A DNA stretch of 25,482 bases from positions 1 through 25,482 of the IMG/VR virus record IMGVR_UViG_3300000101_000143; one strand, given 5' to 3'. Each line of letters begins with the position of its first letter. Position 1 is the stretch's first letter. Positions 1 to 17,802 of this stretch are shown piece after piece. This stretch comes from a virus. The position numbers were made by a program, and so were the translations under genes. The notes under the pieces were generated by a model. That model was not told where the DNA came from. It saw only the letters and a list, made by a program, of their open reading frames with translations, and did not search any database.

Positions 1-79
1 CGCTAGGAACCAAAATTAATAATAAGAGTATAATCAAGATTTCAGTTTACTCAGAAGTAATTATGTTGGAGACAGAGTA

Positions 80-427
80 ATGAAAAAAGACCGATTTGAT
101 TTAGAACAAGAAATAATGAACTGTTGGAATGTGACCACTGACATAGATACTATTATGGAATATGTTGGGGACGATGTATTCTTTAGGGGTATGTCTTCTA
201 CTCATTCAGACGAAATATCGAATCTGCTTCTTGGAATACGTAGTCTATATGAGATTAAGTTTGCCAAGTTGTTCAGAACTTTAGAGGATTGTATTCCTGA
301 TCTTGAAAGTCCAGTGTGGGCACAGGACGAAGAAGATTTGTCTCCGCCTTGGGATGTCGATGACTCTCCTCAACTTGGTTTGCGTTTAAATGATACTACC
401 CCCTCGGACTGGGATAGTCTAAGATAA
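80..427 (+). CDS. Hypothetical acidic protein (115 aa)
   Basis: I do not recognise this family. The ATG is preceded by GGAG about 8 nt upstream, which supports the start. The product is rich in Asp and Glu, especially in the last 45 residues, with a Pro/Trp/Asp-rich end and no transmembrane segment. It is the first complete gene in the window and is followed by the hairpin and late promoter of the next gene, so it belongs to an upstream transcription unit. Coding is supported by an uninterrupted frame with an SD; function is unknown. Confidence 0.65.
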   Translation: MKKDRFDLEQEIMNCWNVTTDIDTIMEYVGDDVFFRGMSSTHSDEISNLLLGIRSLYEIKFAKLFRTLEDCIPDLESPVWAQDEEDLSPPWDVDDSPQLGLRLNDTTPSDWDSLR

Positions 428-441
428 TTTCTCCCTAGACA

Positions 442-475
442 CCCCCTTGGTTATAAATAACAATAGACAAGGGGG
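442..475 (+). promoter_or_regulatory. T4-type late promoter inside an SD-masking hairpin
   Basis: TATAAATA at 452-459 is an exact match to the T4 late promoter octamer. It lies in the loop of an inverted repeat: CCCCCTTG (442-449) pairs with CAAGGGGG (468-475), and TAGAC (436-440) can extend the stem with GTCTA (479-483) across a small internal loop. The right arm carries the G-rich SD for the ATG at 484. If TATAAATA covers about -13 to -6 as in T4, transcription starts near 465, so late RNA lacks the left arm and leaves the SD free, while read-through RNA would mask it. Confidence 0.8.
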
Positions 476-483
476 AGAGTCTA

Positions 484-753
484 ATGACCAAGTTTCACAC
501 AGTGGCAATAACTGCCTTGCTGTGCTCGTTACTTTGGATTGGTTGCACAGCACTTATAATTAATGAATATATAAAGGTAGTACAAACAAAAGACTTTAAT
601 ATTATGATGTTGAAGTCAGAACTTAATAGCAGTAAACAATTAAATGTTTTATATGATGATACCTTGAAAATGTTTATTTGGAAATGTGTGGATAAGTATG
701 AGATCCGCATATCCAATAAATCCTTCATGTGTCATAAAGTTGATAAGGTGTAG
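484..753 (+). CDS. Small single-pass membrane protein (89 aa)
   Basis: Residues about 7-27 form a hydrophobic N-terminal segment with Cys at 14 and 21, followed by about 60 polar residues with two more Cys. This suits an N-anchored protein with a periplasmic tail. The sequence around Cys21 (WIGC) is a poor lipobox, so a plain membrane anchor is more likely than a lipoprotein. A late promoter and an SD-masking hairpin lie directly upstream. The gene is visibly more A+T-rich than its neighbours. An inner-membrane spanin-like role is possible given the lysozyme downstream, but nothing in the sequence proves it. Confidence 0.65.
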   Translation: MTKFHTVAITALLCSLLWIGCTALIINEYIKVVQTKDFNIMMLKSELNSSKQLNVLYDDTLKMFIWKCVDKYEIRISNKSFMCHKVDKV

Positions 754-755
754 TA

Positions 756-1187
756 ATGATAACATTTCGTAAAGAAGTCTTTGAAGTTTTCGAGGAATAT
801 AAAGAAGCAAGTTCCAGAGAAAGTCGGATAGATGTTTTGAAAAAATATGAAGACAACTGGGCGTTCAAGGATATCCTTCGAGGTTCCTTCGATGATTCTC
901 TGGAATTCAACCTTCCGGCAGGGCGCCCACCTTTCACTCCGAATAAAGCGGAGTCTTCCCCTTCCACTCTACTCAAACAACATAAACAGTTCGGTAAGTT
1001 TATCAAGGGTGGCCAAGGTGACCAAACACCATCATTCAAAAGAGAGAATCAATTCGTCCAGCTTCTAGAATCCGTTCATCCGGAGGATGCTGAGTACGTT
1101 CTGAAAATGGTGGCAAAGAAACCACCATGTCGTTACATAACCAAGAAAATAGTACAGGAGGCATTTCCAAATTTGATACGCGAGTAA
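756..1187 (+). CDS. Hypothetical protein (143 aa)
   Basis: Starts 2 nt after the preceding stop, so it is probably co-transcribed with it. The soluble product is charged, with a Pro/Ser-rich middle (about residues 54-75) flanked by predicted helical stretches. There is no signal peptide or membrane segment and I recognise no family. Overlapping frames on both strands are also open here, but this frame fits the operon spacing and the upstream gene order best. Confidence 0.6.
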   Translation: MITFRKEVFEVFEEYKEASSRESRIDVLKKYEDNWAFKDILRGSFDDSLEFNLPAGRPPFTPNKAESSPSTLLKQHKQFGKFIKGGQGDQTPSFKRENQFVQLLESVHPEDAEYVLKMVAKKPPCRYITKKIVQEAFPNLIRE

Positions 1188-1223
1188 TCTTTTCGACACT
1201 AACTAACTTCTAAGGAGAATCCT

Positions 1224-1394
1224 ATGTCGAGTCAAGAACAGCAGTTGAACCAAAATATTACCGAACTACAACAGTTCGTGCATGATACCAGACGCCAAGT
1301 AATATATTCCCAAGGTAATCGAAATTATCGACCGGAAACCATTGCCCAGTATTACAATATACTGAATTCGTCTACTCAACAACTTTCTCGATAA
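1224..1394 (+). CDS. Small Gln/Asn-rich protein (56 aa)
   Basis: A short ORF with a strong SD (TAAGGAG, 1211-1217) 6 nt before the ATG. The product has about 14 Gln and 7 Asn in 56 residues, with two probable amphipathic helices (residues 3-27 and 37-52). No family recognised. Its TAA stop at 1392-1394 is the first part of an unusually complete SD-like sequence. Coding is supported by the SD and the gene-length open frame, but the size keeps certainty moderate. Confidence 0.55.
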   Translation: MSSQEQQLNQNITELQQFVHDTRRQVIYSQGNRNYRPETIAQYYNILNSSTQQLSR

Positions 1395-1434
1395 GGAGGT
1401 GATTATCTCTTCAGAAGCGTGTGTGAGACTTCTG
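1392..1434 (+). promoter_or_regulatory. Extended Shine-Dalgarno-like sequence followed by a hairpin
   Basis: TAAGGAGGTGAT (1392-1403) is complementary over 12 nt to the usual 16S rRNA 3' end, far longer than any other SD here, yet no ATG lies at normal spacing. CAGAAG (1412-1417) can pair with CTTCTG (1429-1434) just after it. The next credible start is ATG 1471, about 70 nt away. A non-AUG start (ATT or ATC near 1402-1407) would give only about a dozen codons. The role is unknown. Confidence 0.4.
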
Positions 1435-1470
1435 TCGTAGTGATTGAAAATAATTTGGAATGGACTTATA

Positions 1471-1713
1471 ATGCCACAGTATGATTTTAAAAACAAAGAA
1501 ACCGGAGAGGTCACGGAAGTGCTTCTCCGGATTTCCGAATACGACCAGTGGACTGTCGATAACCCTGAATGGGTACGATATTTCCCTCCATCTTCAGCAC
1601 CTAAGATAGTATCTGGTGTTAAGTCTACGATGAGACTTGCCGGAAGGGATTGGCAAGACCATCTTAGCAATATCAAAAAAGGTTCTGGTAAGGACAATAC
1701 TATAAAGGTTTAA
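1471..1713 (+). CDS. Phage protein resembling cyanophage FmdB-like small proteins (80 aa)
   Basis: Begins MPQYDFKNKETGEV and continues through a segment of the type ISEYDQW...NPEW. This resembles small proteins of T4-like cyanophages that start MPTY-F-(N)KETGE and are often annotated FmdB-like. The zinc-ribbon Cys pairs of true FmdB proteins are absent, so metal binding is not expected. I chose ATG 1471 over the in-frame TTG at 1444 because family members start at this Met and GGAA lies about 11 nt upstream. Function unknown. Confidence 0.65.
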   Translation: MPQYDFKNKETGEVTEVLLRISEYDQWTVDNPEWVRYFPPSSAPKIVSGVKSTMRLAGRDWQDHLSNIKKGSGKDNTIKV

Positions 1714-1718
1714 GTTGT

Positions 1719-1922
1719 ATGAAATTTTTACATTGGCTGAAGTCAGGGCCTACAGGTGGGAAAAATATTGTTGATAGTTCAGGGCCAGACCCCGATGACA
1801 TCACAGTAGAAAATGCTTACAAGACTAGGTGGGTGTGGTATCATACTATACTCGCTCTTGAAATTTTAACGACCAACATTTTGTTGGCGTCTATCTTGGT
1901 GGTACTTGCCATCAAGTTATGA
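1719..1922 (+). CDS. Small membrane protein (67 aa) before the lysozyme
   Basis: Residues 1-38 are polar with a Gly/Pro/Asp-rich stretch. Residues about 42-66 form a strong hydrophobic C-terminal segment ending at Lys-Leu, so the protein is probably tail-anchored with its N-terminus in the cytoplasm. Its TGA overlaps the ATG of the lysozyme gene (ATGA), which implies coupled translation. A membrane protein joined to an endolysin suggests a lysis role (holin, antiholin or spanin partner), but one transmembrane segment and no recognised family leave this as inference. Confidence 0.65.
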   Translation: MKFLHWLKSGPTGGKNIVDSSGPDPDDITVENAYKTRWVWYHTILALEILTTNILLASILVVLAIKL

Positions 1923-2416
1923 TAGAACTAATTCGTAAACTATGGTGTAAACCTAAAGTGAACCAAACCATGAATAGACAAGCAGTATATGACCAACTCA
2001 AGATTGACGAAGGAGTCGTCTATGAGATTTACCTCGACCACCTCAACTACCCAACGTTTGGTGTTGGACACCTCGTTAAAGAAAGTGACGGAGAGTTCGG
2101 CGCTAAAGTCGGAACGAAAATATCCCCCGAAAGAGTTAGCGAGGCATTCCAACAAGACCTCGACATCGCAATCAACGAATGTCGTGTACTATACGGAGAA
2201 CGGTTCGATTGTTTCCCAGATGAGGTACAGCAAGTCTTGGTTAATATGATGTTTAACCTAGGTAGACCAAGACTAAGTAAGTTCAAGAACATGTATGCTG
2301 CGGTACTCGAAGGTGACTGGAAGACAGCTGCTATCGAAGGCCGTGATTCGCGATGGTATCATCAAGTAGGACTTAGGTCTGAACGACTAATGAGAAGGTT
2401 AGAGAATGTCGAATAA
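1919..2416 (+). CDS. e: T4-type lysozyme (GH24 endolysin, 165 aa)
   Basis: A muramidase that cleaves the N-acetylmuramic acid-N-acetylglucosamine bond of peptidoglycan at lysis. The T4 lysozyme signature is clear: IDEG with Glu31, Asp40, and YPTFGVGH with Thr46 match the T4 triad E11-D20-T26 with identical spacing. Downstream, a segment like T4 ALINMVFQMG (here VLVNMMFNLG) and the SRWY motif near residues 143-146 are also present. There is an N-terminal extension of about 18 residues relative to T4; an internal ATG at 1970 would remove it, but ATG 1919 overlaps the upstream stop. The extension is not obviously a signal peptide, so export through a holin is expected. Confidence 0.92.
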   Translation: MIELIRKLWCKPKVNQTMNRQAVYDQLKIDEGVVYEIYLDHLNYPTFGVGHLVKESDGEFGAKVGTKISPERVSEAFQQDLDIAINECRVLYGERFDCFPDEVQQVLVNMMFNLGRPRLSKFKNMYAAVLEGDWKTAAIEGRDSRWYHQVGLRSERLMRRLENVE

Positions 2417-3257
2417 TGTAATATTCCAATATATGATTGTGAGTGACGCAGTAGACGCTCGCGGTGGTATCAAAGGTTGGGACGGTACACGTTCTTCCTT
2501 GTACAAAGATGTTGCGGACATATCCCGCACATCATTCGAAGAGTACGCAAAGAAGATTGGTGCAACTCACATCTACTCGGATGAACGAGTGGCTACCAAA
2601 GGTCACGGATGTTCTACCTCACTGTTGCACGAGTGCGCACGTGTCTGGTTAGACCCTATGTTTGACCAGTACGATAACCTACTATTCGTAGACACAGACA
2701 TCGTGGTCAATACCGAAGAGAATATCTTTGACGTGATGGAATCGGGTGCCGAAGTCTACGGTGTATTAGAGTCGGACTTCGTTACTGCTGATGGGGGTGG
2801 GTACAACTCTTGGGACAGCAACGAAGAGAATTACATGAACTTCTGTCGAAAGTTCGAACTGCATGACTGTCCTATCGTCCCTGTAATGCCACCTAACCGA
2901 AAGTCCAAACTAATGATAATGAATACCGGAGTTGTTCTCTGGACTAAGGAAGCACGTCTACGTGCACGTAATGAGTTCATGAATTGGGAAGACTGGTGCT
3001 ATACTGGTGACTTCCACATGTCTATCATGAATGACCAACCCTATATCTCTGCGCAGTTGATGAAACATGATTTCGATGTAGAGACTATCGATACGACTTG
3101 GAACGACTCCCCCCACTATGCGTCCGAACATGAGTTCTTCGAGAACGCAAGGTTCTGTCACTACACGGGTGGTGAATGGAAGGTTGATATGGTACGTCAC
3201 TGGCGTGATCTCCGGTTCAAGACGACCCCTTGGCAAAGAAGTATGGGCCCACCGTAA
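2406..3257 (+). CDS. Glycosyltransferase, GT-A fold with DxD (283 aa)
   Basis: Predicted to transfer a sugar from a nucleotide-sugar donor. Hydrophobic strand NLLFVDTDIVV places the metal-binding DxD at residues 96-98. NTGVVLWT lies further on, as in GT8/GT34-like enzymes where an N(S/T)G-V motif lines the acceptor pocket. A His/Trp-rich C-terminal part (HYTGGEWK) is also typical of these families. The ATG lies 11 nt inside the end of the lysozyme gene. There is no membrane segment, so it is cytoplasmic. The acceptor (host LPS, virion protein or DNA) cannot be read from sequence. Confidence 0.75.
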   Translation: MSNNVIFQYMIVSDAVDARGGIKGWDGTRSSLYKDVADISRTSFEEYAKKIGATHIYSDERVATKGHGCSTSLLHECARVWLDPMFDQYDNLLFVDTDIVVNTEENIFDVMESGAEVYGVLESDFVTADGGGYNSWDSNEENYMNFCRKFELHDCPIVPVMPPNRKSKLMIMNTGVVLWTKEARLRARNEFMNWEDWCYTGDFHMSIMNDQPYISAQLMKHDFDVETIDTTWNDSPHYASEHEFFENARFCHYTGGEWKVDMVRHWRDLRFKTTPWQRSMGPP

Positions 3258-3275
3258 ATATTTTCAAAATAAGTC

Positions 3276-3304
3276 TTGACAAACCTCTCATATAGTAGTA
3301 TAAT
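3276..3304 (+). promoter_or_regulatory. Consensus sigma70-type promoter
   Basis: Perfect -35 TTGACA (3276-3281) and -10 TATAAT (3299-3304) separated by 17 bp. Transcription should start near 3311 and serve the three-gene set 3332-4274, which ends in a strong terminator. Host RNA polymerase could read it without phage factors, so this is probably an early unit set within late-type genes. Confidence 0.88.
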
Positions 3305-3327
3305 GATACTTCAAATGTGAGAGGTTT
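3281..3327 (+). repeat. Inverted repeat around the promoter, right arm holds the SD
   Basis: AAACCTCTCA (3281-3290) is the exact reverse complement of TGAGAGGTTT (3318-3327). The right arm contains the SD GAGAGG for ATG 3332 and runs into a T-tract. The -10 box and start site lie in the loop. In RNA from upstream the arms could pair and hide the SD, or act as a weak terminator. RNA started at about 3311 lacks the left arm. Confidence 0.7.
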
Positions 3328-3331
3328 TTTT

Positions 3332-3529
3332 ATGTTTTTATTTAAAATATCAAACGAGGGTGATGGGATATCAGCAACCATTAATGAATCCCCCAATCCC
3401 CGACACAAGTATCGTCTGGTGTATATGGACGATGACGCTAATGAGACAATCTCTGCCGTATACGGTGATGATTACAATGGGTGTGTGACACGTGCACTTG
3501 AATTCGTCAGAGGAATAAAGTTATCATGA
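3332..3529 (+). CDS. Hypothetical protein (65 aa)
   Basis: I chose ATG 3332 because SD GAGAGG lies 7 nt upstream and the predicted transcript begins near 3311; the in-frame GTG at 3317 would have no SD. The product is small, acidic in the middle (MDDDANE) and probably beta-rich, with no membrane segment. Its TGA overlaps the next ATG, so it is translationally coupled. No family recognised. Confidence 0.65.
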   Translation: MFLFKISNEGDGISATINESPNPRHKYRLVYMDDDANETISAVYGDDYNGCVTRALEFVRGIKLS

Positions 3530-3702
3530 ACGAGTTAAATGCCACCAAGATAGAGTTGGCGACCAACTTAGTTAACCGCTACATCTATGAACTAGAGAAC
3601 CCCGATTGGGGACAATTGATGATTTCCCTGCTAAATGAGGGGTTGACTTCCAAGGAAGTTTATGTTATAATGAACAAAGTTAGAGAAGAGGGGGTTGTGT
3701 GA
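3526..3702 (+). CDS. Hypothetical helical protein (58 aa)
   Basis: A short ORF linked by ATGA to the gene before and by GTGA to the gene after, the typical pattern of coupled phage genes. The product appears all-helical, with Leu/Glu-rich segments and a central NPDWGQL turn. A small nucleic-acid or protein-binding domain is possible but unproven. It shares the promoter at 3276 with the HAD phosphatase. Confidence 0.6.
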   Translation: MNELNATKIELATNLVNRYIYELENPDWGQLMISLLNEGLTSKEVYVIMNKVREEGVV

Positions 3703-4274
3703 AAGATAAAGTAATTTTAGTAGACTGTGACGGTGTGTTGTTGGATTGGATGTATTCATTCCAAGCTTGGATGAAACGTCATGGGTATGAAGCGATTGAT
3801 GTTGATAAGTACAAAATCAACGAGATATTCGGAATAGAAAGAAGTGAAGGACGTAAGTTGTGTCGTATGTTCAACGAGAGTGCAACGATTCGTAAGGTTC
3901 CACCTCTGAGAGATGCAATCAAGTACGTTAAGAAGTTACACGAAGAAGAAGGATACATATTCCATGCAATTACTTCTTTGAGTAACGATGAGTATGCACA
4001 ACATCTACGTACTAAGAACCTGTGCGAACTGTTTGGCCCTACAGTCTTTGAGAAATATGTTTACCTAGATACTGGTGCTGACAAAGACGAGGCACTCGCA
4101 GAGTATAAAGATACTGGGTGTCTGTGGGTAGAAGATAAAGTAGAGAACGCTATAGCCGGTGCTGTGGTCGGACTTGAATCAGTTGTCATGCAACACGAAT
4201 ACAACAAAGATACATCAGATTTCCCTTTGATGCGTAACTGGAAAGACATTTACGACTATGTAAAAGGACAGTGA
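3699..4274 (+). CDS. HAD-superfamily phosphatase, 5' nucleotidase-like (191 aa)
   Basis: Starts at GTG overlapping the preceding TGA, with a GA/G-rich SD (GAAGAGGGGG) just upstream. HAD motif I is VDCDGVLLDW (nucleophile Asp9, acid/base Asp11). Motif II is the hydrophobic strand ending in Thr-Ser (AITS), and motif IV is LWVEDK with an acidic pair. The helical cap between motifs I and II and the overall size fit the 5'(3')-deoxyribonucleotidase-like group common in T4-like phages. The likely role is dephosphorylation of a nucleotide or sugar phosphate in the cytoplasm; the substrate is not clear. It is the last gene before a strong terminator. Confidence 0.8.
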   Translation: MKDKVILVDCDGVLLDWMYSFQAWMKRHGYEAIDVDKYKINEIFGIERSEGRKLCRMFNESATIRKVPPLRDAIKYVKKLHEEEGYIFHAITSLSNDEYAQHLRTKNLCELFGPTVFEKYVYLDTGADKDEALAEYKDTGCLWVEDKVENAIAGAVVGLESVVMQHEYNKDTSDFPLMRNWKDIYDYVKGQ

Positions 4275-4297
4275 TTTGTTTCGTTCAGTGGTATTTT

Positions 4298-4323
4298 GGG
4301 AGTCTTAGGACTCCCTTTTTTTT
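4298..4323 (+). terminator. Intrinsic terminator
   Basis: GGGAGTC (4298-4304), loop TTAG, GACTCCC (4309-4315), then eight T. A perfect 7-bp stem right after the HAD gene, and immediately before the late promoter at 4326, so it insulates the two units. Confidence 0.93.
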
Positions 4324-4325
4324 GG

Positions 4326-4333
4326 TATAAATA
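4326..4333 (+). promoter_or_regulatory. T4-type late promoter for the carbamoyltransferase unit
   Basis: Exact TATAAATA, 3 nt after the terminator T-tract. The predicted start near 4339 leaves a leader of about 23 nt with SD AGGTGG before ATG 4362. This also argues against the in-frame upstream start at 4296, which lies within the terminator. Confidence 0.85.
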
Positions 4334-4361
4334 TAAATTTAATCTGATACACAGGTGGATA

Positions 4362-5867
4362 ATGAGATACGTTGGATACAGTGAATTTTATCATGACTCT
4401 GGTCTTGCTATTATTAACGAAGACGGTGTTGTAGACTTTGCCACGCACGGAGAACGATACTCCAAGAAAAAGAACGACCCCAATATCCCTGATGTATTGT
4501 GGGACATGATAAGGGATGATGACCATGTGTCTTTCTACGAAGACCACGTCATCAAGTTTGATATGCGTGGTGGCATTGAAGCAACTGGACGGTCAGTTGA
4601 AAATATTCAAGCTTCAGAATCATTCGAAAAGTTCCCTTATCCAGAAGCATCTACTTATGATGCGCATCACCAACATCACGAATCTCACTGTGCGGCTGCG
4701 TTCTACACGCGCCCGTGGGACTCGAAGGAAGATACTGTCCTAGTATCAATCGATGGAGTTGGAGAGTTACAGACAGCAGTCATCTACGACTCCGACTTCA
4801 AACTAATCAAAGAATGGCACTACCCTAAGTCGGTAGGTCTAGTCTATACCCTTACTACTAAGTTCCTTGGTCTACGGCCTCTCGAAGATGAGTACGTGGT
4901 AATGGGACTGTCTGCCTATCACGACACATGTCCAGAGTCCAAAGCAATTACTGACTGGTTAATTAGTTGGTACAATGACCTAGAAGATATCGCACCTGAA
5001 GTTGAAATGGGTATTGCGGTTGGGGGTGTAGAGTCTAAAAGAGAACAGGATCGTTTAAGGTTCCGGAAAGAGTTTAAGAAAAGAATTCTATCCGTAGAAG
5101 ATAAGGTTGCCGCACGTGCGACCCAAGACTTTGCAGACTATGCAATCATGGGTATCATGGGTACTGCACGGCAGTATGGTAAGAAACTATGTTACTCCGG
5201 TGGTTGTGCACAAAATGTAGTAATCAACTCACGACTGTTCGAACTGTTCGATGAGGTACATATCGCATGTTCACCTACGGATGCTGGTTCCGGTCTGGGT
5301 ACAGCTGCAAGGTCTTGGGCAAAGGCAACAGGTAAAGACAAACTAGTATGGTCTCCATACTGCGGGTACGATATCGAACGTCCGGTTAACCCTAGTGAGA
5401 TCGTAGATCATCTACTGAGTCACAAGGTGTGTGGTATCGCGAACGGTAAGGCAGAGTTCGGGCCACGTGCATTAGGTAACAGATCCCTGATTGCAGATGT
5501 GCGTTATGACGTACAGGATACAGTGAACGGAATCAAACGTAGACAGAAGTACCGTCCGTTTGCTCCTGCTGTACTGGAAGAGTACGCAGAAGAATACTTC
5601 AGTGGCCCTATGAATGACCATATGCAGTTCACCTCTAAGGCACTACATGACTACGCACCTGTGACCCACGTAGATGGGACTGCACGGGTACAAATCGTGA
5701 AGAAGGACTGTGAGTCTATCTTCCGTAAGGTTATTGAAGAGTACCATGATAGAACTGGTGTTCCGATGTTACTCAACACATCTCTCAACATTCGCGGTAG
5801 ACCTATGGTCAATGACGAACATGATGCTGAGTTATGGGAACAGAAATACGGTGTAAAGGTATTCTGA
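4362..5867 (+). CDS. Carbamoyltransferase, NodU/TobZ/CmcH family (501 aa)
   Basis: Enzymes of this family make carbamoyl-adenylate from carbamoyl phosphate and ATP, then carbamoylate a hydroxyl on a sugar, antibiotic or nucleoside. Visible motifs: YSEFYHDSG (residues 6-14); His cluster H102, H103, H105, H106, H109 in the metal site; YSGGCAQN (278-285); FGPRALGNRS (366-375); RPFAPAVL (398-405); LLNTSLNIRG (470-479). Both Kae1-like and YrdC-like halves are present. It ends soon after the last motif, somewhat short of the usual 550-600 residues. The start is set by the late promoter and SD. The target could be a glycan or, as in reported phage-type members, 5-hydroxymethylcytosine in DNA. Confidence 0.93.
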   Translation: MRYVGYSEFYHDSGLAIINEDGVVDFATHGERYSKKKNDPNIPDVLWDMIRDDDHVSFYEDHVIKFDMRGGIEATGRSVENIQASESFEKFPYPEASTYDAHHQHHESHCAAAFYTRPWDSKEDTVLVSIDGVGELQTAVIYDSDFKLIKEWHYPKSVGLVYTLTTKFLGLRPLEDEYVVMGLSAYHDTCPESKAITDWLISWYNDLEDIAPEVEMGIAVGGVESKREQDRLRFRKEFKKRILSVEDKVAARATQDFADYAIMGIMGTARQYGKKLCYSGGCAQNVVINSRLFELFDEVHIACSPTDAGSGLGTAARSWAKATGKDKLVWSPYCGYDIERPVNPSEIVDHLLSHKVCGIANGKAEFGPRALGNRSLIADVRYDVQDTVNGIKRRQKYRPFAPAVLEEYAEEYFSGPMNDHMQFTSKALHDYAPVTHVDGTARVQIVKKDCESIFRKVIEEYHDRTGVPMLLNTSLNIRGRPMVNDEHDAELWEQKYGVKVF

Positions 5868-6040
5868 TGGGACACCTACGGGATATAGGACTGAACTATT
5901 TCGAACATCTGTACAGGGCGTGGTCACTCGCATTTGTTTGTATAGTGCATGGTCTGTTTCCTACTATATGGGAACATAAGGCGAAAGATATAATTAACGG
6001 TGACCCAAAAGATTATAAGGTGATGAAAGATGTCAAATGA
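5867..6040 (+). CDS. Small membrane-associated protein, DUF6356-like (57 aa)
   Basis: The ATG at 5867 overlaps the carbamoyltransferase TGA, so translation is coupled. The product reads LNYFEHLYRAWSLAFVCIVH followed by GLFPTIW: one amphipathic or hydrophobic helix ending in an HGLFP motif. That motif and the YFEHL start recall DUF6356, small proteins of unknown function also seen in marine phages. It probably sits in or on the membrane. The longer frame from 5834 would run inside the carbamoyltransferase and is not needed. Confidence 0.6.
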   Translation: MGHLRDIGLNYFEHLYRAWSLAFVCIVHGLFPTIWEHKAKDIINGDPKDYKVMKDVK

Positions 6041-6353
6041 ACCAGCAAACGTAGACGTGTTCGGTAATCCTATTGGGACAGAATATAGAGAAGATATCTG
6101 TCCACCAGACCTCATGTGTATTCCTAGAGAGGAGTGGGATACTATATTAGAAGAAAACCAACTGGCATGGGACTCTGTTAATAATACAGTTGCACGACAA
6201 GGTGACGCAGAAGCAATAGCAGAATTTACATGGCAAGTATTATTCTTAACCCCTTGGGAGTTAGTATACATAGCTCTACCTATGGGCGTGTTAGCATTTT
6301 ATGGATTGAGTATATACGCTCTTTTTAAATATATACAAAAGAGGTTTAGTTAA
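6030..6353 (+). CDS. Membrane protein with one C-terminal TM segment (107 aa)
   Basis: Overlaps the preceding gene by 11 nt. Residues 1-70 are acidic and soluble, with two Cys in a PPDLMC context. Residues about 77-99 are strongly hydrophobic, followed by a basic tail (KYIQKRFS), so the likely topology is N-out or tail-anchored with a cytoplasmic basic end. No family recognised. It lies between the carbamoyltransferase and a two-TM holin-like gene. Confidence 0.6.
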   Translation: MSNEPANVDVFGNPIGTEYREDICPPDLMCIPREEWDTILEENQLAWDSVNNTVARQGDAEAIAEFTWQVLFLTPWELVYIALPMGVLAFYGLSIYALFKYIQKRFS

Positions 6354-6358
6354 TTAAC

Positions 6359-6715
6359 ATGTTTTCAGAACAATCAATAAACACCCCAACCCCAGAAGCA
6401 AAGCCACTCAAACAAAAGATTGAACTTGAAGTAGAGTTCGATACAACACAGAAAGAAGTTACCCCAACTAAGTTCAGTACCTTGTTACAGTTCGCGGATG
6501 TAATCGATGCGTTTCGAATTTTCCCACGAGCATTCATAGGTACGTATTTGTTCCTGTTGATCGAAGTCACTCAATGGTTCATGACGATATCTGAACCAAA
6601 TGCATCACAAGCAGGTCTCATCTCTGTAGTGGTTGGTGCTGGTGCTGCGTGGTTCGGTCTGTACACGTCTACAGGTTCTGGTAGACAGGTCAAAAGTATT
6701 AAGACTAGTAAATGA
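6359..6715 (+). CDS. Holin-like protein with two TM segments (118 aa)
   Basis: A polar 50-residue N-terminus precedes two hydrophobic segments: about residues 60-77 (FIGTYLFLLIEVTQWF) and about 86-103 (Gly/Ala/Val-rich), then a basic tail ending in KTSK. This layout fits small phage holins, and I recall related proteins in marine myoviruses, but the family is not certain. The SD is weak (GAGG about 13 nt upstream). Its TGA overlaps the ATG of the next gene. A second holin candidate lies at 10374, so one may be an antiholin or unrelated to lysis. Confidence 0.55.
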   Translation: MFSEQSINTPTPEAKPLKQKIELEVEFDTTQKEVTPTKFSTLLQFADVIDAFRIFPRAFIGTYLFLLIEVTQWFMTISEPNASQAGLISVVVGAGAAWFGLYTSTGSGRQVKSIKTSK

Positions 6716-7590
6716 AACCATCTGAGTTAGTTACTTGGCGAGGAACGCCAGGCGTTGGTGATTTCATGTGGGCGTTGAATTCGTGCCACAAGTATGCCGC
6801 GGATCATAATATTCGAAAGATAAATCTAGAGCTTCACTGGGAACACGGTGAGGACTACTACCATCATTTCGAAGACCCTGAGACTATCATCGAGCGGTGT
6901 AACTACATCCACAACTTCTATCACCAACAAGAACGTGTGGAGATACACCATATCTTTAATGCGCATGGTAGATATAGAGACTGGAAGTTTGACGATGATG
7001 TTGTTTTGGAAACAAACGGTGAACGTAGGATAGCTGCAATACACAAAGACAAATCCAGATTCTATTTCGAGTCAGGTGCATATGACGATACACCTGGCAA
7101 TGTTATTCCGGACAACGACTGGATATTCCGACAAGATGCTTTCAGAGACTATGACCCAAACCGTATAGTCTTCTGGAGGCCAACATGGAATGCAGAGAAA
7201 CCTCGTACATGGAAACGGATTTTCGATAATGTGGACTGGGACAAGTTGATAGCGCATTTCGAAGGTCTGGGTTTCAATATGCACGAACTTTCTTACCGCA
7301 CACCCGCATCCGAAGCAATGCAATTAATCTCTACGTCTCGCATGGTCATCTGTTACGATGGCATCTGGCATTATGTTGCAAAGAACTTTGCTAGACCTCT
7401 CGCGGTAATCTCCGGTGAAGGAGTGACTAAATACCATACACCGAATGCGCTTAGGTTAAATCCTGAGTTATCAAAAGAAGACCAAGGTGTCTGGTGGTGG
7501 ATAGAACATATCGAAGACTTGTTGCAACAAACTAAAAGAAAATCAGTAGAATATGAAGAGAGGATGAAGATTTATTATGGAAATGACTAG
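6712..7590 (+). CDS. GT9/heptosyltransferase-like glycosyltransferase, GT-B fold (292 aa)
   Basis: The C-terminal half contains a segment of the type PASEAMQLISTSRMVICYDG followed by WHYVAKNFARPLAVISG. This matches the ADP-heptose-LPS heptosyltransferase pattern (E-x-x-x-L-I-x-x-S-x-x-x-I-x-x-D-G/S-x-x-x-H-x-A). The N-terminus (RGTPGVGDFMWALN) has the Gly-rich turn seen at the start of GT-B enzymes. Probable role: sugar transfer to a lipid- or protein-linked glycan in the cytoplasm. It is ATGA-coupled to the upstream gene and overlaps the radical SAM gene by 14 nt, which suggests the two act on the same product. Confidence 0.6.
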   Translation: MKPSELVTWRGTPGVGDFMWALNSCHKYAADHNIRKINLELHWEHGEDYYHHFEDPETIIERCNYIHNFYHQQERVEIHHIFNAHGRYRDWKFDDDVVLETNGERRIAAIHKDKSRFYFESGAYDDTPGNVIPDNDWIFRQDAFRDYDPNRIVFWRPTWNAEKPRTWKRIFDNVDWDKLIAHFEGLGFNMHELSYRTPASEAMQLISTSRMVICYDGIWHYVAKNFARPLAVISGEGVTKYHTPNALRLNPELSKEDQGVWWWIEHIEDLLQQTKRKSVEYEERMKIYYGND

Positions 7591-8566
7591 AGAAACATTT
7601 CAGATTGACCGCGCAGTAATTGAAGTCGCGGGTGGATGTAACTACTCATGTTCTATGTGTCCACAAGACTTACGTGAGGGTGGACGACATAAAGGGTTCC
7701 GCCGCATCATGAAACTCGATGAGTTCGAGAAGTATGTTGCGGACTGTGCGCAGTATGGACTCAATGTTGTGAACCTAGACGGTTCCGGTGAAGCCACAAT
7801 GGCGAAGAATCTACCCGAATACATCAAGGTAGTGAAGAAGTATGGCGCAAAGGCGTTTATCTTCTCTAATGGATTTAAGATGGAAGGTCAGTACATGCGC
7901 GACTGCGTGGACGCTGGTCTGGACTTCTATCGATTCTCGTTCATCGGTGCGGATGAACAAGACTACAGCAAGTGGATGTACAATGCAGTAGGAGGACACT
8001 TTGCTCAAATCAAACGCAACATCCAAGAGATGGTTGCATACGTAGAAGAGTCTGGTTCGGACTGTGTTGTATCTACATACCACCTAATCACCGACAATGA
8101 TAACCTCGACACAGAACTAGAGAAGTACAAAGCATTGGTAGAAGAACTCGGAACTAAGACCGAGATTTGGAAGATGCACAACTGGTCTGGTGTTCAAGAC
8201 ATATCGGAGTCCGGTGTACGTGAGGGTAAGAAGAAGACCTGTGGTCGACCGTTCTCTCCGGACGTAGTGATACGTGCGGGAGGACTTGAGAAGAAGACAG
8301 GCGCAGTACATCCATGTTGTCAAGTCCTTGGACGTGACGAAGAAGCTGTACTAGGACACTGTTCAGAAGATAACATACTTGACATCTTTTTTGGTGAAGA
8401 GTATGAGACTCTACGTGAGCAACACCGCACCGAAGAATATCCAGACTTTTGTAAGAGCTGTGATTTCTTAATCGAAGACCCCGAAGTATTGGTATACACC
8501 AATCACGAAAGAGACTTGATGAAGATGCACGGCACCAATTTCACACTTAACGATTATAGGGATTAA
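7577..8566 (+). CDS. Radical SAM enzyme with SPASM-like auxiliary cluster domain (329 aa)
   Basis: CxxxCxxC at Cys21, Cys25 and Cys28 binds the [4Fe-4S] cluster that cleaves S-adenosylmethionine. LDGSGEAT (residues 68-75) is the GGE-like SAM-binding motif. The C-terminus has Cys222, Cys247/248, Cys262, Cys292 and Cys295 in the SPASM arrangement (CGRPF, HPCCQV, FCKSC), implying at least one extra cluster. SPASM enzymes modify peptides or sugars by radical chemistry. The start could be ATG 7577 or 7583. It lies between a GT-B glycosyltransferase and a small membrane protein. The substrate is unknown; no obvious precursor peptide lies next to it. Confidence 0.9.
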   Translation: MEMTRETFQIDRAVIEVAGGCNYSCSMCPQDLREGGRHKGFRRIMKLDEFEKYVADCAQYGLNVVNLDGSGEATMAKNLPEYIKVVKKYGAKAFIFSNGFKMEGQYMRDCVDAGLDFYRFSFIGADEQDYSKWMYNAVGGHFAQIKRNIQEMVAYVEESGSDCVVSTYHLITDNDNLDTELEKYKALVEELGTKTEIWKMHNWSGVQDISESGVREGKKKTCGRPFSPDVVIRAGGLEKKTGAVHPCCQVLGRDEEAVLGHCSEDNILDIFFGEEYETLREQHRTEEYPDFCKSCDFLIEDPEVLVYTNHERDLMKMHGTNFTLNDYRD

Positions 8567-8567
8567 C

Positions 8568-8771
8568 ATGTTCAATTTAGAAAAACTTTCTTTTTATGGT
8601 ACACTTGCAAAGACGTGGGTTCAATCACGACTAGGCGAACGCACAACTTATGACGGCGTAGTTATTGTCGCCCTCTGTGCAAGTTACATTATCTTTGATG
8701 GTATTATTACTCTAGCTGCATACGCTGGTATTCTATATGGTCTATGGACTATGTGGCAACAACAAAAATAA
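8568..8771 (+). CDS. Small membrane protein (67 aa)
   Basis: Starts 1 nt after the radical SAM stop, with AGGGA upstream. Residues 1-28 are polar and basic; residues about 30-62 are hydrophobic and long enough for one or two short TM segments with a tight Asp-Gly turn, ending in WQQQK. It could be a membrane anchor for the preceding enzyme or a lysis accessory protein. It is also the right size for a modified peptide, but has no leader-like features. No family recognised. Confidence 0.6.
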   Translation: MFNLEKLSFYGTLAKTWVQSRLGERTTYDGVVIVALCASYIIFDGIITLAAYAGILYGLWTMWQQQK

Positions 8772-8805
8772 ATGTCGACCAACGGACTTGAAAGAGTTCG
8801 ATTAT

Positions 8806-8813
8806 TATAAATA
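8806..8813 (+). promoter_or_regulatory. T4-type late promoter
   Basis: Exact TATAAATA about 100 nt before the ATG of the sulfotransferase-like gene. The predicted start near 8819 gives an unusually long leader of about 92 nt for this genome. Confidence 0.8.
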
Positions 8814-8818
8814 ATAAC

Positions 8819-8910
8819 ACTTATCCGTATTTGACTGGCCAGTCCAGCGAGTTCCATTTCGCACGTGCGGGTTAAGAAACTCTTTAAAGAATCCAATGAG
8901 GAATAATAAA
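8819..8910 (+). promoter_or_regulatory. Long leader with two perfect palindromes
   Basis: The leader holds GACTGGCCAGTC (8833-8844) and CGCACGTGCG (8861-8870), both perfect palindromes, and GAGTT...AACTC that can enclose the second. It ends with SD GAGG (8898-8901) 9 nt before ATG 8911. The palindromes could be RNA folds, protein-binding sites or methylation targets. No coding frame of use is present. Confidence 0.45.
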
Positions 8911-9624
8911 ATGGAAACGCAATACAGTATTGTAACATTAAACGATCATTTTATGGTTGGTAGTGCTACATCGGGTCATGACATGGTACAAAACATGTAC
9001 GGTATGTACATCCGTTATGAACAACAGTTACAGACTTCAAAGACTAATTTAGAAGTCTCTGTTCTAGCACACGACAAAGTATATAAACCTTTGATATGGA
9101 CATCGTTAGGTTGGACTTCAACACACGACCCTGTGTCTGTTGAAAGGTTAATGATCTCTATAGAAGAGGGTTCTCTTGCCACTAACCAGATGTTAAAAAT
9201 CAATAGAGACTATAAGGATGTACTTGTTTCTACTTGGCAGCTTTGGCAACCAGAAATGTCTTGGGAAGAATTCATCGCGAGTCCTCAAGGGTTCTCATCA
9301 GTAGAAGCCTTTGAAAAGGATGCTGCGAAATTTACCTATAGTCTAGTCCTCTCCTATGAAGATTTAGTTAACGACCCACATCGTCAGTTCACTTCTATAG
9401 TAAACCATCTACTACCACGTCAGGACAATCCTGAACTGGTCACTTTTGGTAAGGCGAAAAGGAATATCGACCTTTTGGCTATCGACACTGTGGTTCAAGA
9501 TTCTAAGATCCGCGAATGTCGCGAAGGAATGTCACAAGGTCTACTAGAAAGTGTTGGTGTTTGGAAACAATTCATATCTAAAACCCAAGCAGAAGAAGTT
9601 GATGAGTTCCTAGCAACTCTATAA
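8911..9624 (+). CDS. Sulfotransferase-like protein (237 aa)
   Basis: The C-terminal half carries YEDLVNDPHRQF, the sulfotransferase signature segment (YEDL-x-x-DP) that precedes the 3'-phosphate site, and the end SVGVWKQFISKTQAEEVDEF matches the family's closing G-x-W-K...E motif. The N-terminal PAPS-binding loop, usually P-R-S-G-(T/S)-(T/S), is here GSATSGHDMVQNM, lacking the usual Arg and hydroxyl pair. It may bind PAPS differently or be inactive. I chose ATG 8911 because GAGG is 9 nt upstream; ATG 8896 has no SD. It forms a single-gene unit between late promoter and terminator. Putative target: a glycan hydroxyl. Confidence 0.6.
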   Translation: METQYSIVTLNDHFMVGSATSGHDMVQNMYGMYIRYEQQLQTSKTNLEVSVLAHDKVYKPLIWTSLGWTSTHDPVSVERLMISIEEGSLATNQMLKINRDYKDVLVSTWQLWQPEMSWEEFIASPQGFSSVEAFEKDAAKFTYSLVLSYEDLVNDPHRQFTSIVNHLLPRQDNPELVTFGKAKRNIDLLAIDTVVQDSKIRECREGMSQGLLESVGVWKQFISKTQAEEVDEFLATL

Positions 9625-9648
9625 TCTTCAGTTAAGTTTAAGATAGAT

Positions 9649-9682
9649 AAAGACGGGATTGGAAACTTTCCCGTCTTTTTTT
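9649..9682 (+). terminator. Intrinsic terminator
   Basis: AAAGACGGGA (9649-9658) pairs perfectly with TCCCGTCTTT (9669-9678) around a 10-nt loop, followed by T to 9682. It ends the sulfotransferase-like unit. The next ATG is only 15 nt further on and I see no clear promoter between, so the next gene may depend on read-through. Confidence 0.93.
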
Positions 9683-9696
9683 GTTTTGGAAATATA

Positions 9697-10356
9697 ATGG
9701 TTAAGAAAAGTTTTTTGACAGGATGCGACTATAATACCGAATGGCAACTGCCGTGGTTTATAGAGAACTTCATCGAACACTCGACAGGGATTCTACAGGT
9801 CGCAGACTTTGGTATGACAGATGATATGATAGACTTCATCGAGCATCACCCTAGGTTCGGTAAACAAATTTATATCCTTAGTTTTGAAAACAAACTGTCT
9901 GGTTGGTTCAAGAAACCACGGTCAATATATGAGGCGACTCGTGACGGGTTCAATATATGTTGGTTAGATACCGACTGTCAAATCGATGGAGATGTGGATT
10001 CTATTTGGGAACACTTCGAGTCGGGTAGGATGGGTATGGTTGTTGACCGGCCGTGGACTAAAAGAAGACCAGACAACGGTGAATGGTACAACTCTGGGGT
10101 CATTCTAAGTGACCGCAACCAAACCCTAATCAACTGGATGGACTCGTGTGAACGAAACCAAACAGAGTCTGACCAGTTCATATTATATCATATGCACACG
10201 CCCATAGAACGCCTCAGTAAAATTTATCCCATCCCACACAAGTATAATACTTTACGACTAGACTACATAGATAATGTAGCTGTAAAAAATCCTATCATTA
10301 TTCACCATACAGGTAAGAAAGGTAATGAAGTGATTAGACAGCAAATGAACTTTTAA
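9697..10356 (+). CDS. Glycosyltransferase, GT8-like with DxD (219 aa)
   Basis: Strand FNICWLDTDCQI sets the metal-binding DxD at residues 91-93, and YNSGVIL (131-137) is the family's acceptor-side motif. HHTGKKG near the C-terminus matches the His-x-Gly-x-Lys-type motif that binds the donor phosphate in GT8 enzymes. About 220 residues is short for GT8, so it is a minimal catalytic domain. It is the second DxD enzyme in the window and not closely similar to the one at 2406. Cytoplasmic; acceptor unknown. Confidence 0.68.
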   Translation: MVKKSFLTGCDYNTEWQLPWFIENFIEHSTGILQVADFGMTDDMIDFIEHHPRFGKQIYILSFENKLSGWFKKPRSIYEATRDGFNICWLDTDCQIDGDVDSIWEHFESGRMGMVVDRPWTKRRPDNGEWYNSGVILSDRNQTLINWMDSCERNQTESDQFILYHMHTPIERLSKIYPIPHKYNTLRLDYIDNVAVKNPIIIHHTGKKGNEVIRQQMNF

Positions 10357-10373
10357 CTATTAGAGGATATATT

Positions 10374-10856
10374 ATGTTAAGTGGATTAATAGGTTCACTA
10401 TTAGGATTTGGGGGTTCCCTTGTCCCAGCAGTGACAGACCATTTCGCATCAAAGCGAAACAATGAGTTTGAACTAAAAAAGATGGAGAAGATGGCTGAAC
10501 TACGGGCAGCTGGATTCGACCATGATATGAAGATGTTCGAGACCAAGGCAGCAGACGATGAACATGCTCGACTTATCGAACACGATATCTCAATCAACAA
10601 AGGCACAGGGTTCATTGCCGGACTACAGAAGTCGGTACGCCCTGTAATCACATACTGTTTCTTTATTCTATTCGCAGTGATAGAAGTAAACTTGTTGCAA
10701 CAAGCACTTGCAAGTGGATCAGACCTTTCAGGTGCATTAGATACCCTATGGGACGAAGATACTAAGGCGATATTCGCTGCGATTATCTCTTTCTGGTTTG
10801 GTTCACGTGCGGTCGAGAAGGCAAGAGAAACCCCATACAGCGCCAGAGTAAAGTAA
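10374..10856 (+). CDS. Holin-like protein, GTA_holin_3TM type (160 aa)
   Basis: Strong SD (GAGGATAT) before ATG 10374. Layout: a Gly-rich hydrophobic N-terminus (MLSGLIGSLLGFGGSLVPAV), a long charged helical region rich in Lys, Glu, Ala and Met (about 30-75), GLQKSVRPVITYCFFILFAV (TM2, about 84-103), and a third hydrophobic segment AAIISFWFGSRAVEK near the end. The RPVITY...FWFGSR arrangement fits the 3TM holin family found in gene transfer agents and marine phages. Likely role: inner-membrane permeabilisation to release the lysozyme at 1919, or membrane control of lysis timing. Confidence 0.65.
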   Translation: MLSGLIGSLLGFGGSLVPAVTDHFASKRNNEFELKKMEKMAELRAAGFDHDMKMFETKAADDEHARLIEHDISINKGTGFIAGLQKSVRPVITYCFFILFAVIEVNLLQQALASGSDLSGALDTLWDEDTKAIFAAIISFWFGSRAVEKARETPYSARVK

Positions 10857-10859
10857 TAT

Positions 10860-11210
10860 ATGTATAACTATCAAGCAATAGTTCGCAGATGGGTGGACGG
10901 AGATACAGTCGATGTTGACATTGACCTAGGATTTGGTCTTGTTTACGCTAACCAACGTCTCCGTCTTTACGGTATTGATGCATACGAGTCTCGTACTAGA
11001 AACCTTGACGAAAAGAAGAAAGGTCTAGAAGCGAAAGAGTATGTTAACCAGATGGCCCCCGAAGGGACAACCGTAAGCATAATTACCCACAAGACAGGTA
11101 AGTACGGTAGAATACTCGCAGAGGTATTTGTCGAGACCGACTACAACGAGTGGACATGTATAAATAATCTACTAATAGAGGAAGGTCATGCTACAAAGTA
11201 TCCTATCTAA
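10860..11210 (+). CDS. Staphylococcal nuclease-like nuclease (SNase/TNase domain, 116 aa)
   Basis: A complete OB-fold nuclease domain: RWVDGDTVDVDIDLGFG holds the Ca2+-binding DGDT (13-16), RLRLYGIDAYES supplies Arg35, Asp40 and Glu43, and TGKYGRILAEV supplies Arg84. These match the catalytic Arg35/Glu43/Arg87 of the S. aureus enzyme. LIEEGHA near the end is also typical. There is no signal peptide, so it would act in the cytoplasm on DNA or RNA. Such proteins are frequent in marine phages. The late promoter of the next gene lies inside its 3' end. Confidence 0.9.
   Translation: MYNYQAIVRRWVDGDTVDVDIDLGFGLVYANQRLRLYGIDAYESRTRNLDEKKKGLEAKEYVNQMAPEGTTVSIITHKTGKYGRILAEVFVETDYNEWTCINNLLIEEGHATKYPI
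11159..11166 (+). promoter_or_regulatory. T4-type late promoter inside the SNase gene
   Basis: Exact TATAAATA. The predicted start near 11172 gives a 16-nt leader containing GAGGAAGG 3 nt before ATG 11188. An intragenic promoter would allow separate late expression of the lipoprotein and the genes after it. Confidence 0.72.
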
Positions 11211-11550
11211 AATAACACTTGCCATCATGGTGTTGTTTTTGGTATCATGTGACCCTTCCCCAGATAAAAAACTGTCAGGGACACAAGATTACACTGGCGT
11301 TCAATTCCCGATAACCGTCTATACATATGATAGTAGGGAAGAGTTGAATAAGGCGGTAGAAGGTAAGAAGCCCAAAGGACAAAGAGTCGAAGGACTAGCT
11401 CTGTGGTTCCTGAAAAAAGAAAACAGAGAAATGATAAGGTGTGAGATTCATGTTGTATCTCCAAGTAAAGTTGATGATGAACATACACTGACTTGGGGTC
11501 ATGAACTAGCACACTGCATATACGGCACATACCACAAGGAACCAAAATGA
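11188..11550 (+). CDS. Lipoprotein with HExxH motif, putative periplasmic metallopeptidase (120 aa)
   Basis: The signal peptide has a basic start, a hydrophobic core, and lipobox LVSC with the lipidated residue at Cys21. Asp at +2 would keep it in the inner membrane in enterobacteria by Lol avoidance. The mature part ends in WGHELAHCIYGTYH, giving His105-Glu106-x-x-His109 with His116 as a possible third zinc ligand. A zinc-dependent peptidase or amidase facing the periplasm is the simplest reading. Its own late promoter suggests a lysis or envelope function (spanin-like or wall hydrolysis). No close family recognised. It overlaps the SNase end by 23 nt. Confidence 0.7.
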   Translation: MLQSILSKITLAIMVLFLVSCDPSPDKKLSGTQDYTGVQFPITVYTYDSREELNKAVEGKKPKGQRVEGLALWFLKKENREMIRCEIHVVSPSKVDDEHTLTWGHELAHCIYGTYHKEPK

Positions 11551-12203
11551 GACGTGTTAATGTAATGGGTAACGGAGACCATGCTGCCCTATACAAGAAA
11601 GGTACAGAGGGAGAACTTGTCGTATGTAACATGCCTCCTATCGAACTAAACAAGGAAGATGTATTCGCGTCTTGTATGGTCGACTTTAAGATGATGCAAG
11701 CGCTCAGTGAAAGTAAAGTGCACCTCGATGAGTACGACTGGATTCTGGGTACACGACCTCGCAAATGGATGGAGGTCAACGCAGCGTTCTACTTAAAGTA
11801 CTCACAGAACATTAAGGGGTTCCATACATACGTACCCCCATATGCGCAGTTGCCGGGACACAAACTGTCCGAAGCAGCGAGTAACTATTCGTGCGGTCAT
11901 ATGGCTGTGGACTATGCGTGTCGCATTATGAAGGCGACTGAGGTTCATCTGTATGGGTTCGACTCTATGTTCGATATGAACATTGACAGTTATACAGATA
12001 ACTTCTTAGAGTCCAACCGAACTGCACTAAACGTGCATCGTATGGCAAGTAACTGGAGACCTATATGGTCTGGTTTCTTCAGAGAGTTCAGTAAGGTTAA
12101 ATTTGTTATTCATCATGGGCATTCTAATATTAAATTAAGTCTGCCTGAAAATGCAACTATAGAGGTAGGAGAGTTAGAAGATGGAAATGGAGAATCTTCT
12201 TAA
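11547..12203 (+). CDS. DUF115/MptE-like putative glycosyltransferase (218 aa)
   Basis: ATGA-coupled to the lipoprotein. The N-terminus VNVMGNGDHAALYKK is a glycine-rich GNG loop like the nucleotide-binding start of DUF115/MptE and bacterial sialyltransferase-like proteins. Later come a strand with WILGTRPRKW and EVHLYGFDSMFD, where a G-x-D segment is common in that fold. There is no membrane segment. The role may be glycosyl transfer or nucleotide-sugar binding in the same decoration pathway as the genes at 2406, 6712 and 9697. Assignment is by fold-type pattern only. Confidence 0.5.
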   Translation: MRRVNVMGNGDHAALYKKGTEGELVVCNMPPIELNKEDVFASCMVDFKMMQALSESKVHLDEYDWILGTRPRKWMEVNAAFYLKYSQNIKGFHTYVPPYAQLPGHKLSEAASNYSCGHMAVDYACRIMKATEVHLYGFDSMFDMNIDSYTDNFLESNRTALNVHRMASNWRPIWSGFFREFSKVKFVIHHGHSNIKLSLPENATIEVGELEDGNGESS

Positions 12204-12318
12204 AGTAACAAAAGATTTTGTATTAGATACTGCACATGACTTCATGTCCGTATGGGACTTTAGACCCAACGTATTAATCTGGTGCTTCATCTTTGGCGTA
12301 GTACTATTCTGGATATAA
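12181..12318 (+). CDS. Small membrane protein (45 aa)
   Basis: Starts at ATG 12181 (or 12187) inside the end of the preceding gene, with TAGGAG about 10 nt upstream, and stops 4 nt before the terminator stem. Residues 1-29 are amphipathic and charged; residues about 31-45 are hydrophobic and aromatic (VLIWCFIFGVVLFWI) and run to the C-terminus. A short tail-anchored peptide, possibly lysis-related. Too small for a family call. Confidence 0.5.
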   Translation: MEMENLLKVTKDFVLDTAHDFMSVWDFRPNVLIWCFIFGVVLFWI

Positions 12319-12343
12319 AAAAAGGGACTCTTTCGAGTCCCTT
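12317..12343 (-). terminator. Intrinsic terminator between convergent genes
   Basis: AAGGGACTC (12322-12330), loop TTTC, GAGTCCCTT (12335-12343). Read on the minus strand the stem is followed by seven T, so it ends the minus-strand pair. On the plus strand the stem is the same but the T-tract is weak, so it may only partly stop the plus-strand genes. The minus-strand version is nearly identical to the terminator at 25044-25070. Confidence 0.9.
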
Positions 12344-12370
12344 CTTCATTCTTACTGTCGGGTAAGTTCC

Positions 12371-13216
12371 TTAGAATACAGAAATCATTCTTTTCATGAT
12401 GTCTGATTCTTCCGGGCGGCCTTTAGCGGCATCTTCGTCCCACTGGGAACGAATCGAGAATGCTGTGTCGACCATAGAGTCACTTTCTTTCTTTTCACCA
12501 TTGTACCATTTAACCGAAGACGGTGCTCCGTAATAAATGTCAACCATTTCAAATTCTGGGGTGCAGTATGGAGCGAAGATTTCTCGTACTTGAGACTCTT
12601 CGAAACCAACTTGCTTGTCTGTCATAGGAACACCTAGGAAGACTACTGCATCAAATTTTTCGTGTTCACCTTCTAGAGTCCAAGCGTCTTGACCGTGCTT
12701 GTACTGTTGTGAACAAGTTTGTGTCTGTGGCATCATTTCATTAATAGTATAGAGTTCGTGCATGACACCCTGATACTTATTTTCTGGTGGACGTACGATT
12801 GTGAAGTCACCTTCATATTTAAAGGTCTTCATTACCAATGGAATGAACTGCGCTACGATGTTCATATCCGGAAAGGTTTGCATTGCTGAACGTTCTGGTG
12901 GTAGAAGGTCAATCATACGACCAGCGAACTGGTCTAACATCCAATGTGTCTGAGCATCATTGAAATGACCAACGAATAGGATATTTTTATATCCACGGGT
13001 CTTTAGTGCGTTACAGAACATAGGTGCACGTGATAGAAATTCTTCTACCATATTCACCTCATCATTTTTATAACGAAGATACTTACCAGATTTAGTGGTA
13101 GTTTCCTTTAGTGTGCTATTAAAGAAACGGGCATATACTTCTTTATACTCGCCACTCACGAATTCTTGTTTGGTGCCATCGGTTAAGATAACTTCGTCTT
13201 TACTGTTATAAAACAT
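12371..13216 (-). CDS. Hypothetical protein (281 aa)
   Basis: The second gene of a minus-strand pair; its ATG lies 4 nt after the stop of the upstream gene, with GGGAT as a weak SD. Residues about 75-90 (YKNILFVGHFNDAQT) look like a Rossmann-type strand and loop, but no catalytic motif can be pinned down. There is a Cys pair region near residues 165-170. No signal peptide or membrane segment. Expression is probably late, from the promoter at 13480. Family not recognised. Confidence 0.65.
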   Translation of the reverse strand: MFYNSKDEVILTDGTKQEFVSGEYKEVYARFFNSTLKETTTKSGKYLRYKNDEVNMVEEFLSRAPMFCNALKTRGYKNILFVGHFNDAQTHWMLDQFAGRMIDLLPPERSAMQTFPDMNIVAQFIPLVMKTFKYEGDFTIVRPPENKYQGVMHELYTINEMMPQTQTCSQQYKHGQDAWTLEGEHEKFDAVVFLGVPMTDKQVGFEESQVREIFAPYCTPEFEMVDIYYGAPSSVKWYNGEKKESDSMVDTAFSIRSQWDEDAAKGRPEESDIMKRMISVF

Positions 13217-13219
13217 TGG

Positions 13220-13474: not shown

Positions 13475-13479
13475 AGGTT

Positions 13480-13487
13480 TATTTATA
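13480..13487 (-). promoter_or_regulatory. T4-type late promoter, minus strand, touching the gene start
   Basis: TATAAATA read on the minus strand. Only 5 nt separate it from the ATG at 13474, so with T4 geometry the transcript would start at or next to the ATG and be leaderless. Confidence 0.75.
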
Positions 13488-13506
13488 CTTTTTTTATGGT
13501 TAGCCA

Positions 13507-13535: not shown

Positions 13536-13564
13536 ATAGTTCTGTTACCGAGAGGGGATAATAC

Positions 13565-17801: not shown

Positions 17802-17802
17802 T

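Follow-up and report, generated by a model that had tools for sequence, protein, structure and literature searches.

A sigma70 promoter set between the arms of a putative terminator hairpin that includes a ribosome-binding site in a marine T4-like phage

The stretch of DNA analysed here (the window) is 25,482 nucleotides long and comes from a marine T4-like phage; the features of the locus all lie on its plus strand. A co-directional gene at 2406–3257 ends 18 bases 5′ of the −35 box of a sigma70 promoter. Its product has no Pfam or PHROG match, "glycosyltransferase" being the label given to it in an earlier note on this DNA, and it is the last gene of an operon preceded by a T4-type late promoter at 452. 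The intergenic gap that follows (3258–3331) leaves little room for separate signals and contains the element considered here (3276–3331). Behind it lies a 65-aa ORF (3332–3529) with a homologue in phage C48C1, and then gene X (58 aa, 3526–3702), which in most relatives is directly 3′ of the element. The 65-aa ORF sits between the element and gene X here and in two near-identical contigs and is missing from a 99% relative (L004), a pattern that reads as the gain or loss of a gene behind an element that stays in place. A second sigma70-like promoter (3643–3671, an 11/12 match), with neither a strong stem nor a T-tract, serves a 191-aa gene (3699–4274; phrog_420) that is NT5C-like just below the Pfam cut-off. 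A conventional intrinsic terminator at 4298–4323 closes this sigma70-driven island, and a T4-type late promoter (TATAAATA, 4326–4333) located before a carbamoyltransferase gene would restart transcription. The order of island, terminator, late promoter, and carbamoyltransferase is found in six of the seven contigs checked, the terminator being unrecognised in L035.

The promoter of the element matches the sigma70 consensus at 12/12 positions, with a −35 hexamer TTGACA (3276–3281) and a −10 hexamer TATAAT (3299–3304) separated by 17 bp, and is one of three such matches in positions 1–20000. The last A of the −35 hexamer is also the first base of a left arm, AAACCTCTCA (3281–3290), which lies within the promoter spacer and is the perfect reverse complement, over 10 bases, of a right arm, TGAGAGGTTT (3318–3327). 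The 27-base loop between the two holds both the −10 box and the predicted transcription start, which promoter geometry places at about 3311, 7 bases 3′ of the −10 box. The right arm contains the Shine–Dalgarno (SD) sequence GAGAGG (3319–3324) and shares three T with a T7 tract (3325–3331). This tract—which would make the hairpin an intrinsic terminator—doubles as the spacer between the SD and the ATG at 3332, which comes right after it. Direct reading therefore bears out what the earlier note had described, namely a consensus sigma70 promoter within a perfect 10-base inverted repeat, with the −10 box in the loop and a right arm that supplies the SD of ATG 3332 and leads into seven T. An AT-rich block 5′ of the −35 box (TATTTTCAAAATAAG, 3259–3273) is kept in most relatives of the element and is possibly an UP element.

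RNA covering 3276–3345 is predicted to fold with an energy of −20.1 kcal/mol (z = −4.8; 0 of 200 shuffles equally stable) into a 13-bp stem that includes G-U pairing, plus an inner 5-bp hairpin in the loop. In the predicted fold of read-through RNA, every base of the SD is paired (mean unpaired probability 0.000), whereas in RNA beginning at 3311 its unpaired probability is about 0.4; the AUG of the latter RNA is mostly paired in prediction (short folds). The whole window has two perfect inverted repeats of 10 bases with a loop of 3–40 bases, against 1.27 in shuffles (sd 1.6), which is no enrichment; the repeat is thus weak evidence by itself and was rejected as such, and the case rests on its position and on relatives. 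What does lie above chance is the placing of the repeat on a consensus promoter with a T-tract, together with covariation in relatives. An Rfam search of the window gave no match at the gathering score, and hence no known RNA family (riboswitch, attenuator).

Relatives of the same locus (family A) were sampled through the upstream protein (80 contigs) and through gene X (34), and 14 distinct elements retain both stem and T-tract. For the covariation analysis, the helix was anchored at the last base 5′ of the T-tract, with the register set per sequence and the same treatment given to real and shuffled partners. Relative to AAACCTCTCA/TGAGAGGTTT in the window, the arms of L016 (AAACCTCTCC/GGAGAGGTTT) carry an A-T to C-G change, those of L035 (AGCCTCTCTG/CAGAGAGGTT) a T-A pair, a new G-C pair, and a one-base shift of register, and those of L089 (AAACCCTCTCA/TGAGAGGGTTT) an extra base pair through extension of both sides. 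G-U pairs, found on either side, occur once in L031 and twice in L028, and a single C-U mismatch is present at pair 7 in L010, L017, and L390. Both-sided changes affect pairs 3–9, and the mean arm score of 17.8 compares with a maximum of 17.4 in partner shuffles (0/2000 reach the observed value). Stem and T-tract in this family are either both present or both degraded: two arm mismatches are accompanied by loss of the T-tract in L020 and close copies of it, and L051 to L054, L056, and phage C48C1 possess the promoter without stem or T-tract. L047–L049, in which a 7-bp stem is kept without a T-tract, are the one partial exception to this coupling. No named isolate carrying the element was found, phage C48C1 having the promoter only.

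A second and independent context is provided by gene B (phrog_27048), the downstream gene common to several of the elements recovered by the scan of viral contigs described below, whose homologue in the window is the ORF at 14305–14601. Promoters collected by gene B protein homology alone comprise 54 distinct regions (family B). A stem is present in 21/21 of those with at least five T before the ATG and in 1/33 of those without (Fisher 4e-14), and an upstream co-directional ORF ends no more than 30 nt away in 21/21 promoters with stem and T-tract versus 3/33 others; most of the 21 stem-bearers, however, belong to a single lineage in which a DnaB-like helicase gene lies upstream, and because of this shared ancestry the Fisher and P values of both contrasts overstate independence. 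Covariation within the family does not depend on those inflated values. Among its 22 distinct elements, both-sided changes affect pairs 1, 2, and 4–9, with a mean arm score of 18.1 versus a maximum of 15.7 in partner shuffles (again 0/2000). Mean hairpin energy is −19.8 kcal/mol versus −6.9 in stem-less homologues. In part of the family, a tract of T5–T6 directly abuts the stem although the ATG follows only several bases later (TTTTTTATTTATG). The window's own gene-B promoter (14236) has no strong stem, no T-tract, and more room upstream. The compensatory arm changes that the earlier note had put forward as a check are accordingly found in two unrelated gene contexts, and in neither do the arms vary independently, which would have told against that note's reading. 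Such paired changes show that evolution keeps the RNA fold in place.

Viral contigs were scanned with the pattern TTGACA-N17-TATAAT-N10..30-T7-ATG, in which the left arm is unconstrained. Together with a related scan, this gave 89 distinct sequences, 32 with a strong spacer-to-leader stem; a mispaired-arm control for the viral-contig scan gave a strong stem in about 2%. After grouping, the stem reached at least 20 in 17/48 clusters. A replicate scan with GGAG-T6-ATG gave a weak signal, with 4/18 clusters at 18 or above (null 13%) and 2/18 at 20 or above (null 2.8%), against 2/59 and 0/59, respectively, in its no-T control, so the kind found at 3276 is a minority among phage promoters whose SD spacer is T-rich. 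The first pattern gave 7/109 clusters in bacterial genomes, none close behind an upstream gene, and a scan of the T4 genome revealed no such sigma70 element. Two near-complete relatives (151 and 145 kb) carry the element once each among 36 and 37 sigma70 promoter–ATG pairs, with one match each among 92 and 100 promoter-like sites and none in five shuffles of each. A general sigma70 switch of this phage, as proposed in the earlier note, is rejected by this single occurrence per genome, and the other strong promoters of the window are without the element. The arrangement thus appears to be real but uncommon, and concentrated in some gene contexts. MazG homologues of cyanophages, which adjoin gp41, were uninformative.

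Other leaders have features of their own. In L131, L140, L142, L153, L176, and L197, a consensus promoter is followed by a terminator-like leader that consists of a hairpin from near the start, then T7 and ATG, with no SD. Within the window, a dispersed promoter–leader repeat of about 59 bases precedes successive small genes (five copies in 15888–18895, and others at 19157 and 21216). Short hairpins of the form GTGACC...GGGTC, seen by eye just 5′ of promoters at 15855, 16776, 18804, 19121, and 19984, contain the preceding gene's stop codon. The leader at 20738–20812 (promoter near 20705) is long and has nested hairpins, with folding no better than in shuffles (z = −0.5).

The element at 3276–3331 is probably a terminator, a promoter, and a ribosome-binding site superposed on one another. 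Polymerase entering from the upstream gene would copy both arms—the left arm being copied only in such RNA—and the hairpin would form during synthesis of the T-tract, so that the incoming transcript would terminate about 15–20 bases beyond the promoter's predicted start site. Any read-through RNA that escapes would have its SD paired in the stem and be poorly translated. Polymerase starting at about 3311 would make no left arm, leaving no terminator fold and a free SD, and the gene behind the element would be expressed from its own promoter only, insulated from upstream transcription. The earlier note had regarded SD masking as the main role and a stop to read-through as a secondary idea. Masking is retained here as a predicted effect, consistent with the paired SD of read-through RNA, but is placed second to termination; the stop to read-through is the better supported of the two, given that gains and losses of the stem coincide with those of the T-tract. 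Against this reading, efficient terminators tend to have shorter loops than the 27 bases seen here, which include an inner 5-bp hairpin.

It is unlikely that the element is a switch of translation only, in the style of T4 gene e, with a hairpin that masks the SD in read-through RNA and causes no termination. Such a switch would explain why the SD forms part of the 3′ arm and is completely base-paired in the predicted read-through RNA, and genuine masking hairpins of the T4 type accompany late promoters in this phage. A T-tract is not needed for masking, however, and those late-promoter hairpins have none, yet the stem goes with the T-tract in 21/21 versus 1/33 family B promoters and is abutted by T5–T6 even where the ATG is further away. 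The converse proposal, a terminator only, in which purine-rich arms and tight spacing make the SD overlap incidental and translation is unaffected, is quite improbable. Termination alone would account for stem and T-tract, and any 3′ arm in that position would overlap the SD; nevertheless, the SD is still fully paired in the modelled read-through RNA, and some masking would be hard to avoid. Very little probability is given to the arms being a DNA dyad for a phage or host repressor that overlaps the promoter. Symmetric arms on either side of the promoter would suit such a site, as would the likewise symmetric A-T to C-G change in L016, but the arm centres are 37 bp (about 3.5 turns) apart, their distance varies among relatives, arm sequences are completely different between families, G-U pairs are tolerated, and the coupling to the T-tract would be left unexplained. 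A chance inverted repeat is scarcely credible: ten-base repeats at such spacing are expected about once per window, but the compensatory changes in two families, matched by 0/2000 shuffles, contradict it.

If the element is indeed a superposed terminator, promoter, and ribosome-binding site, then its role at this locus is likely to be to insulate an early island that is surrounded by late genes, since a late promoter precedes the upstream operon and the island is closed by a terminator and a late promoter; the early timing is predicted from the promoter type. Late-to-early insulation as a rule for all cases was rejected, because the upstream gene in family B encodes a DnaB-like replication helicase and not a structural protein, and the common theme would therefore be insulation from a neighbour rather than late-to-early timing. 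As a tentative generalisation, which may or may not hold, we propose that phages, marine T4-like and others, have on several occasions evolved an insulator made in one piece, with the sigma70 promoter as the loop of an intrinsic terminator and the SD as its 3′ arm, thereby closing a gene to incoming transcription and keeping it open to its own promoter. This would mirror the late-gene hairpins of T4, shutting genes off once their own promoter is silent, and would arise where an intergenic gap cannot accommodate the signals one after another. Should this hold, about 56 bases serve as terminator, promoter, and SD together and would provide a compact insulated expression part in which neighbour-driven expression is shut at both transcription and translation. 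This would explain how single genes within foreign operons keep their own timing, and terminator finders restricted to short loops would miss such elements.

No description of such an element was found in the open-access literature searched, outside which most subscription journals lie, and its nearest counterparts each share part of the arrangement. Like an intrinsic (Rho-independent) terminator, it has a stable stem of 10–13 bp (−20.1 kcal/mol) abutting T7. Unlike one, it has a 27-base loop, interrupted by the inner 5-bp hairpin, that holds a promoter, and a 3′ arm that doubles as an SD; with loops of 3–8 bases, a terminator scan of the window did not return it. In Escherichia coli, the frd terminator overlaps the ampC promoter region, an arrangement comparable in its overlap of signals from two adjacent genes, but there the terminator works as an attenuator of ampC located past the start. 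Mobile elements such as Tn916 have insulating terminators that isolate genes from incoming transcription (PMC11658703); there the terminator is a separate one, whereas at 3276 a single set of bases serves as terminator, promoter, and SD.

A close likeness is to the promoter-in-hairpin translational control of T4 gene e, soc, and I-TevI (and of Aeh1 mobE), in which, for the three T4 genes, a late promoter is flanked by arms whose pairing hides the ribosome-binding site in early RNA (PMC3014915, PMC2988022). As in these, the 3276 element has its promoter between the arms, with a predicted start at a fitting position, an SD in the stem of the predicted read-through RNA, and a transcript from the embedded promoter that would lack the 5′ arm. 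A true counterpart in the window is the hairpin at 442–484, which, judged by its sequence, is of the T4 gene e type: the late promoter TATAAATA (452–459) lies between CCCCCTTG (442–449) and CAAGGGGG (468–475), the SD is in the right arm and, with no T-tract, the hairpin could only mask translation. This hairpin, also reported in the earlier note, is supported by covariation of its arms (CCCCCTTG/CAAGGGGG versus CTCTCCCT/AGGGAGAG in G002), but the "same logic" that the note extended to 3276 is not supported. Late promoters TATAAATA within SD-masking hairpins also occur at G001:15252 (−) and G002:70518 (+), and a second late-promoter hairpin precedes a 118-aa ORF at G001:105607 (−) and G002:127783 (+), with arms CTAGAACCTTAAA/TTTAAGGTTCTAG and AGCCTTAAACTGT/ACGGTTTAAGGTT that are complementary though different between the two phages. 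The T4 elements use late promoters and keep late genes from being translated on early or middle transcripts; the 3276 element uses a sigma70 promoter, and it has a T-tract that makes its hairpin a predicted terminator. With no late promoter, an added T-tract, and a loop that is not short, the element at 3276 is a member of neither class.
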